Positions 26,155-36,013 of a stretch of 42,488 nucleotides of DNA are shown here, piece after piece. The stretch is from Microcaldota archaeon. GTDB lineage: Archaea > Micrarchaeota > Micrarchaeia > Micrarchaeales > CABMGC01. The notes under the pieces are model-generated. The model had not been told where the DNA came from. It was given only the letters and a program-made list of their open reading frames with translations, and did not search any database. The position numbers and the translations under genes were made by a program. Each line of letters starts with the position of its first letter. The stretch's first letter is position 1. The DNA is taken from assembly GCA_027334165.1 (NCBI GenBank), contig DAHWXM010000007.1, positions 1 through 42,488 on the forward strand, read 5' to 3'.

Positions 26155-26732
26155 ATGAACGGATTAAAGTTTGATACAAAAAGGACTGCGCTTGTGGTCA
26201 TAGACCTGCAGAAAGGGATCGCGTCAAGGAACACTGCGCCTTATGATGCAAAGACAGTGATTGCTAATGCGGCGGTGTTAGCCGATGCGTTCCGCAAAAA
26301 TAACATGCCTGTGTTCCTTGTGCACGTTGCGCCGGATGGCCCAGATAGGCTCACACCAGTTTCTGATGAAAAGATAATGACAGGCGGGCAGATGCCGGGC
26401 GACTGGTCCGATTTCGTAGAGGAGCTGAACGCCGGCGGCTCGGATATAATAATCACAAAAAACAGTGGGGAGCATTTTACGGGACTGATCTGGAGCTCAG
26501 GCTCAGAAGGCGCGGAATTGGTACGCTTGTACTTTGCGGTATCGCCACAAATTACGGAGTTGAAAGCACAGCAAGATTTGCCTACGAGTATGGGTTTGAA
26601 CAGGTATTTGCTGAGGATGCCATGACTTCTATGTCAAAAGAAATGCACGATGCTTCAGTGAATTATGCACTGAAAAGGATGGGCAGGGTGCGGAGCACAA
26701 GGGAAATAATGGAAGCGGTGGCTGGTGCCTAG
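26155..26732 (+). pseudogene. isochorismatase-family hydrolase (YecD-like), frameshifted
   Basis: The track ORF (26155-26625) encodes the N-terminal half: 'TALVVIDLQKGIAS' with the catalytic Asp, and '[12 protein letters not shown]' with the catalytic Lys. It then leaves frame. The other half continues in the -1 frame from about 26478: '[19 protein letters not shown]', then '[20 protein letters not shown]', '[18 protein letters not shown]' and '[12 protein letters not shown]', ending at 26732. The join is at a T4 run (26475-26478), where one missing T, or a -1 slip, gives [10 protein letters not shown] as in YecD-type relatives. The usual nucleophilic Cys is Gly (TNYGV), which is normal for the YecD and PhzD groups. 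It is a fresh pseudogene, a sequencing error or a recoded gene; full length would be about 192 aa. Confidence 0.8.
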
Positions 26733-34501: not shown

Positions 34502-34559
34502 TTAACGGCCTGAGGCACACAGCGCTGACATGCCCCACTCATTCCGTTAAGCATCAGCG
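34502..34559. repeat. interlocked inverted repeats after tRNA-Lys
   Basis: TTAACGG (34502-34508) pairs with CCGTTAA (34544-34550), and CGCTGA (34523-34528) pairs with TCAGCG (34554-34559). The order a-b-a'-b' could form a pseudoknot directly downstream of tRNA-Lys on the minus strand. The last arm touches the tRNA 3' end. Confidence 0.3.
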
Positions 34560-34632
34560 GGCCCGGGGGGATTTGAACCCTCGACTTGCTGGTTAAGAGC
34601 CAGCCACTCTGACCAAGCTGAGTTACGGACCC
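34558..34632 (-). tRNA. tRNA-Lys(CTT)
   Basis: Acceptor GGGTCCG/CGGGCCC (one T-G wobble), D-arm ACTC...GAGT, anticodon stem GCTGG/CCAGC with loop CTCTTAA (anticodon CTT), T-loop TTCAAAT. The T-stem GAGGG/CCCCC contains an A-C mismatch at 50:64. Discriminator G, no intron. Confidence 0.92.
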
Positions 34633-34668: not shown

Positions 34669-36013
34669 CTATTTTAACTCTTTCTTCAGGAACCTCTCCA
34701 AAGCCGCATCAAGGGTCTTGCCCCTTGGTTTCAGCTCGTACGTGACCCTAACTATCAGCTTGTTTACTACTATCACCTTTCGTAGGTCTATGGGGGTTGC
34801 AGAGATAACGGAATCACAATCCGCGCTGTTTATCGTGTCCTGCAGGTCTCTTATCTGCTTTGGACTGTATCCCACAGCAGGCAGTTCGTCCGACAGCCTC
34901 GGATATTTCATGAACGTATCTTTTATCGAACCTACAGCATATTTCTTGGCGTTGACTATTTCCTTTGCGCCATACTCCTTCGCCGCTACGGTCCCAGCCC
35001 CAAACTTCATTCCGCCGTGTGTTATCGTCGGTCCGTCTTCCACCACAAGAACCCGCTTGCCCTTTATGTTTCCAGCATTGTCAACACGTATGATCGAATC
35101 CGCCATAACTATTCTTGCCGATTTATTTATCCCCTCCAGATTTCTGGCAACACGATCTATGTCGGACCTTTGTGCCGAGTTGGCCTTGTTTATTATGATC
35201 ACGTCCGCCAACCTCGCGACCGTTTCTCCAGGATAATAGTTTAATTCGTCGCCGGCCCGCAGCGGATCCGCCACTACAATGCTCATGTCGGGCTTCACAA
35301 ACGACGCATCGTTATTACCACCATCCCAAAGTATTACATCGGCGTCCTTCTCTGCACGCCTGAGCACCTCTCCATAATCCACCCCTGCGTATACCCAGAA
35401 CCCATTAACTATGTGGGGCTCATAATCTTCGCGCTCCTCTACGGTGGTCTTATACCTGTCAAGGTCTTTCAAGTCTTTAAAAACCTCCACCGACTGTTCC
35501 TTCAGGATCCCATATGGCATGGGGTGCCTTATTATTGCAGCCTTTACCCCATGTTCTCTGAGCCAAAGCGATATGTATCTCGAAGTCTGACTCTTACCAA
35601 CCCCCGTTCTCACGCCACAAACAGAAATGACGGGTTTAGAGGATTTTATCATCGTGCGCTCCGGGGCAACAAGCCAGAAGTCGGAGCCATTTGCATTTGC
35701 TATGCTAGCCTTCTCCATCACATCGACGTACCGGAGGTCGCTATACGACATGACGCACACCCCAACATTCATGCTTTTCACGAGCCGCGGCAGTTCGCTT
35801 TCATCATATATCCGTATGCCCTTCGGATAAAGGCTACCGCTGAGCTCTTTTGGATACATCCTCCCGGAAATGAACGGTATTTGCGCAGCGGTAAATCCAA
35901 CCACGTTGTAGCTGGGATCGGAGCGGAACAAGACGTTGAAGTTGTGGAATACGCGGGCCCTAGAGCCTATCGCGACCAGCCGCCCCTATTATGATAACAT
36001 TTTTTGTATCCAT
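34669..36013 (-). CDS. cyclic 2,3-diphosphoglycerate synthetase-like P-loop protein (COG2403), split by a putative 19-nt intron
   Basis: A 441-aa protein after splicing, related to archaeal cDPG synthetases, which cyclise 2,3-diphosphoglycerate using ATP; many COG2403 members lack a proven function. Motifs: N-terminal 'VIIIGAAGRD' + 'FHNFNVLFRSDPSYNVVGFTAAQIP', P-loop 'GVRTGVGKSQTSRY', 'RHPMPYGILKEQ', 'VEEREDYEPHI', 'VILWDGGNND', 'VLVVEDGPTITHGGM' and 'TPIDL'. The first 15 codons start at the ATG at 36013; 19 nt then interrupt the frame with a stop (TAG). The remaining 426 codons are open from 35949. The track reports only a 420-aa ORF from an internal TTG. Exons: 36013-35969 and 35949-34669. 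Confidence 0.85.
35950..35968 (-). other. putative bulge-helix-bulge intron in a protein gene
   Basis: Minus-strand AGGCTCTAGGGCCCGCGTA. Exon CGCG pairs with intron CGCG (4-bp central helix). The bulges are AT^A and TA^T, both cut after the second base. GGC/GCC closes a 6-nt loop in the intron. Splicing joins GAT to TTC, restoring GRDFHNFN. Confidence 0.7.

Follow-up and report, generated by a model that had tools for sequence, protein, structure and literature searches.

In the literature that we could reach, introns in archaeal coding sequence that are bounded by bulge-helix-bulge (BHB) motifs are established for cbf5 alone, and for the Crenarchaeota alone (Watanabe 2002; Yokobori 2009, PMC2738675). 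The cbf5 introns are 16-44 bp long, interrupt a catalytic codon, have their cuts between the second and third bulge base and are patchily distributed (PMC2738675). No later reports of BHB introns in archaeal coding genes besides cbf5 were found in the open-access literature. An mRNA BHB motif that is processed by EndA occurs in HVO_1309 of Haloferax volcanii (PMC7714728), and elements in the coding sequence of an archaeal virus have been proposed to be introns (Peng et al., in PMC2738675). Archaeal tRNA introns, those of the Micrarchaeota included, have the BHB geometry as well.

The gene described here lies in a 42,488-nt stretch of DNA from a Microcaldota archaeon (contig DAHWXM010000007.1; hereafter "the window"). 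We consider it highly probable, at roughly 0.93, that a 19-nt insert near its 5' end acts as a BHB intron of the pre-mRNA, which codes for a P-loop protein related to cyclic 2,3-diphosphoglycerate (cDPG) synthetase; the label "COG2403-like" for this gene is our assumption, adopted from an earlier, sequence-only reading of the window. As in cbf5, BHB motifs mark the exon-intron borders and the expected cuts fall between bulge bases 2 and 3, the inserts are short (19-31 nt in the Micrarchaeota gene), they disrupt the best-conserved stretch of the protein (GRD, where cbf5 has its catalytic codon) and their presence among relatives is patchy. Unlike cbf5, the gene and the phylum are different, the endonuclease is of the epsilon2 instead of the hetero-tetrameric (alpha-beta)2 type, canonical 3-nt bulges are found in all five inserts known to us whereas the cbf5 motifs are often relaxed, the inserts map to scattered tips of the tree, and splicing is here deduced from sequence. 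HVO_1309 differs in that its BHB sits in the 5' UTR and leaves the reading frame uninterrupted, and the viral elements, as far as they are described in the source cited, are 12 bp long, frame-neutral and putative, whereas the Micrarchaeota inserts carry stops and mostly shift the frame. With archaeal tRNA introns the insert would share its geometry and presumably EndA and RtcB; candidates of the same layout, with comparable 4-bp central helices, are present in the source genome (e.g., Thr(GGT), Ser(TGA), and Tyr(GTA)), but what is joined here is a reading frame and not a tRNA.

With high probability this would be the second archaeal protein gene with a BHB mRNA intron and the first in the Micrarchaeota, within the literature searched, since different BHB inserts occur at the same point in four other species on separate branches of the phylum. 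The sequence-only reading had believed an intron this short in a metabolic P-loop gene to be undescribed, which is consistent with the open-access literature searched, where cbf5 stands as the sole archaeal coding gene interrupted in this way. A further case from a DPANN phylum, alongside the other type of broad-specificity endonuclease, would lend weight to the view that mRNA becomes open to intron gain where endonucleases are relaxed.

The interrupted gene and the fold of its insert

The gene is located on the minus strand. Exon 1 (35969..36013) comprises 15 codons, MDTKNVIIIGAAGRD, starting with the ATG at 36013, and encodes an N-terminus that is conserved in 83 homologues, in all of which GRD is invariant once inserts are taken out. 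The 19-nt insert AGGCTCTAGGGCCCGCGTA (35950..35968) follows in phase 0 and holds an in-frame TAG, and exon 2 (34669..35949; 426 codons plus a stop that ends at 34669) starts with FHNFNVLFRS. Without splicing, the frame reads ...GRDRL and meets TAG at codon 18, giving 17 aa; the spliced frame restores GAAGRD-FHNFN and the full 441-aa protein. Of 25 removals of 19 nt tested, at offsets of -12 to +12 from the junction, only that of 35968-35950 restored GRDFH, and it was also the one that gave the full BHB, which the neighbouring removals did not. The exon borders are fixed independently by the conserved protein, and they agree with the cut positions of the bulges.

In the predicted fold (all features on the minus strand) the 5' arm of the central helix, CGCG in the Arg-Asp codons of exon 1 (35971..35974), forms four Watson-Crick pairs with the 3' arm, CGCG in the insert (35952..35955). 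This helix is flanked by the 5' splice-site bulge AU^A (35968..35970) and the 3' splice-site bulge UA^U (35949..35951), both cut after base 2. Inside the insert GGC (35965..35967) pairs with GCC (35956..35958), extended by a U-G pair, and the short outer helix joins UGG of exon 1 (35976..35978) to CCA of exon 2 (35945..35947), 3 bp beyond a U-U mismatch. The sequence-only reading had named these parts except for the U-G pair, together with the position of the insert, the frames on either side of it, the 17-aa unspliced product and the restored GAAGRDFHNFN; all were recovered exactly when we re-derived them from the window. Motifs equally good at a 19-nt spacing number 22 per 1.63 million genome positions (about 1e-5), and the BHB of the window is therefore beyond chance. 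With 41 nt of local context, the BHB itself has the minimum free energy; when 61 nt are folded, another structure comes out slightly ahead (-14.9 kcal/mol, z 0.7), with the BHB helices as the centroid.

The exon 2 protein has no match in Pfam or NCBIfam at E 0.001. Its sequence relatives of known structure are cDPG synthetases (9sxb, E 1.6e-7; 8oru, 1.8e-5), and the similarity is local (residues 211-322 at E 1.6e-7, with a weak piece at 81-149), which suggests a P-loop protein distantly related to these enzymes. A tRNA-Lys(CTT) gene (34557..34632, minus strand) follows 36 nt downstream and is probably outside the splicing mechanism. In many relatives (loci L003-L029 and L181) this tRNA gene likewise lies closely 3' of the COG2403-like gene on the same strand, in some with tRNA-Met next, so that gene and tRNA form a conserved protein-tRNA gene cluster. 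In the homologue L196 (genome G134) a TGA takes the place of the Gly of the others (THG*MPYG) while the rest of the frame is intact, which may be a mutation, an error or odd decoding.

Same-site inserts in other Micrarchaeota and their origin

A phylum-wide protein search, covering 245 Micrarchaeota genomes first and then 301, found the COG2403-like gene in 152 of the 301; one homologue from Candidatus Micrarchaeota is 68% identical. The homologues whose junction was inspected first all had the motif uninterrupted. Of the first 128 genomes, 107 matched a degenerate pattern of the intact junction and were thereby cleared, and the other 21 consisted of the source genome itself, 18 that were examined and two with partial or weak matches (G190 and G245). 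In four of those 18 an insert interrupts the gene at the identical nucleotide, and 19 more gene-bearing genomes, seen in the 301-genome set only, are all uninterrupted. The junctions read GGGCGCGAT^AGGCCACTTTAGGCCCGCGGA^TTCCAC in G085 (21 nt), GGACGCGAC^AGGTCTGAATAGACCCGCGGG^TTTCAT in G197 (21 nt), GGTCGCGAT^TGATCAAAAGCTTTTGTTTTTGGTCCGCGAA^TTCCAC in G093 (31 nt) and GGACGTGAT^TAGCCAGAAGGTTCGCGAA^TTCCAT in G138 (19 nt). Together with that of the window there are five phase-0 inserts, in five genera and four families, each species represented by one assembly, and their sequences differ from one another. Apparent internal stops in seven further genomes (G036, G012, G143, G059, G172, G224, and G137) were ruled out as introns because the frames are full-length and the stop is the C-terminal one.

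The five interrupted genes fall in five separate places of an 81-protein tree. Uninterrupted sisters stand on well-supported branches (G150 for G085 and G151 for G197), and three congeners that lie very near G093 lack an insert. The distribution can be explained by five gains or by one gain and about 28 losses, and repeated acquisition at a single preferred site, or the spreading of an intron-bearing region, is more parsimonious than one ancestral gain. The window gene and that of G085 have an identity of 0.80 around the intron and 0.635 elsewhere (top of the 80 comparisons for the window gene; z 2.8 among all pairs), a hint, suggestive only, of exchange between lineages. It is conceivable, and we put it forward tentatively, that a family of BHB introns has repeatedly invaded this one site across the Micrarchaeota and has moved from lineage to lineage with no homing endonuclease involved, e.g., through reverse splicing with recombination or by swapping of the gene's 5' portion. 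If so, archaeal mRNA introns would be actively gained today.

A single ancient BHB intron, kept in five lineages and lost in the others, seems to us rather unlikely. It would account for the identical insertion point and phase in the five lineages, and intron loss is documented for cbf5, for which an ancestral-loss history is partly inferred (PMC2738675). Against it stand the five separate positions in the tree, with uninterrupted sisters, the closeness of G093 to its congeners and the 28 losses required instead of five gains; one clade of the interrupted genes is also rejected by the AU test (p 3e-58), although an ancestral intron does not require such a clade. Whatever the history, these five introns at one site, together with sister species that lack them, make a tractable set for studying how such introns arise.

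Shared structure, splicing enzymes and readings without an intron

All five inserts fit a BHB with the cut positions and 3-nt bulges retained. The central helix is CGCG/CGCG in four and CGUG/CGCG in one (5' arm CGYG, 3' arm CGCG in 5/5), the inner helix counts at least about 4 bp in every insert, with compensatory changes in both arms, and the outer helix is weak, with 2-4 pairs. RNAalifold, given the five sequences alone, returned an outer helix, a 3-nt bulge, a 4-bp helix, a hairpin and a second 3-nt bulge, i.e., the BHB, with 96.4% of pair cells paired compared with 24-55% when the 3' partners were slid. Three inner-helix pairs are changed on both sides, and the covariation values were reached by 14 of 500 shuffles, statistics that are modest with five sequences. 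Among the 120 permutations of inner-helix halves the native pairing was the best (29 bp; mean 5.8 native vs 2.8 swapped). The sequence-only reading had proposed an alignment of orthologues and had named unpaired substitutions in both CGCG arms as evidence against an intron; the relatives turned out to be uninterrupted except for the four with different BHB inserts at the identical site, and the arms are paired in all five.

Folded locally, the window gene and G085 have the BHB as their minimum-energy structure and G093 and G138 nearly so, while the unconstrained fold of G197 departs from it in the central helix. For pairing, the exon arm has to be CGYG, and the Arg codon of GRD is CGY (CGC or CGT) in all five interrupted genes and in 22 of 78 uninterrupted ones (Fisher p 0.0028, which is optimistic given the non-independence of related sequences). 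A covariance model built from the five inserts recovered those five in the 301 genomes at E <= 3e-12, by construction, and the informative part is the absence of others: the next best match stood at 0.0016, and no convincing copies of the intron were seen elsewhere in these genomes. Seven weak matches were discarded, three being uninterrupted homologues and four, outside the gene, looking like chance.

RtcB joins the products of archaeal splicing, and the source genome encodes it (G000:C3:2680-3984). It also encodes, outside the window, an EndA of 384 aa with two tRNA_int_endo domains, as in the three-unit chain of about 390 aa of epsilon2 enzymes (G000:C20:50465-51619), which aligns over residues 7-384 with ARMAN-2 EndA (PDB 4fz2/9w2k; E 6e-153). 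The alignment retains Y236, H251, K282, Y160, K161, R275, and W384, corresponding in ARMAN-2 EndA to the reported catalytic residues (Y236, H251, K282), the ASL residues (Y160, K161) and the bulge-stacking residues (R275, W384; PMC12397907). By this alignment the enzyme would clearly be of the epsilon2 type, like that of ARMAN-2, and epsilon2 endonucleases are described as broad in specificity (PMC6379350; PMC7714728). RtcB is likewise encoded in G085, G197, G093, and G138, each of which has an EndA frame of 394-406 aa. In the pre-mRNA, the CGCG toward the end of exon 1 would pair with the CGCG toward the 3' end of the intron, and the two 3-nt bulges so formed would each be cut after the second base by a homodimeric epsilon2-type EndA, with RtcB as the expected ligase of the exons, yielding GAAGRD-FHNFN and the 441-aa protein. 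We infer transcription, cleavage and ligation, as well as any regulatory effect of the kind that the sequence-only reading raised as a possibility.

In family f2 (G151, G185, G235, G035, G071, G101, and G197) the endonuclease gene lies ~0.6-3.5 kb from the COG2403-like gene; a functional linkage of the two was rejected, this synteny being family-wide and independent of the intron. Genus g62 of family f7 (G138, G137, G172, G159, G156, and G224) has, besides the long EndA, a second endonuclease-domain protein of 160-180 aa, possibly an extra subunit.

There is very little room for translation without splicing, whether by ribosomal bypass of the 19 nt, a frameshift, readthrough of TAG or a start at the TTG at 35931. 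The last would open a 420-aa frame but at the loss of the glycine-rich GAAGRD loop conserved in relatives. An in-frame stop in the frame of exon 1 is present in all five inserts, at the first, third or fourth codon. The inserts of G085 and G197, at 21 nt, stay in frame and hold TAG, as readthrough would allow; the other three lengths (19, 19, and 31 nt) shift the frame, the inserts of G093 and G138 open with the stop codon, and neither bypass nor readthrough would predict the conserved endonuclease geometry and the exon-intron pairing. A pseudogene or an assembly or sequencing artefact, i.e., a gene broken by a random 19-nt insertion, is equally improbable: the source assembly is a draft, 83% complete, and another gene of the window has a 1-nt frameshift in an A-run, but four other assemblies carry same-site inserts of different sequence and length with BHB pairings and compensatory changes, and exon 2 is intact over 426 codons and not fast-evolving (branch 0.43 vs 0.35 for G007 in the protein tree), with no second copy of the gene found in the 816-kb genome. 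Artefact, pseudogene and frameshift are thus all very unlikely, and a BHB intron remains the preferred reading.

Search for further introns in coding sequence

The 19-mer occurs once in the window. A genome-wide BHB scan of 102,160 motifs ranked the insert of the window as the top match and as the only one that convincingly joins both sides of a conserved protein; 49 other matches in the source genome were good on one side only. BHB scans of the source genome, G007, and most of G011 gave no convincing case of a further mRNA intron. Fourteen frameshift-like protein interruptions in the source genome, inspected by eye, were not intron-like; most were spurious antisense or overlapping frames, and one is the A-run frameshift of the window. 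In practice, an intron of this kind would mean that gene callers can flag functional archaeal genes as broken and miss protein starts upstream of short introns.

The window gene with the A-run frameshift (26164-26723, plus strand) presumably encodes an isochorismatase-like hydrolase (homologue G011 C2:72747-73322). It is broken by a single frameshift near 26450-26470, without an insert, which is either a sequencing error or a real slip.
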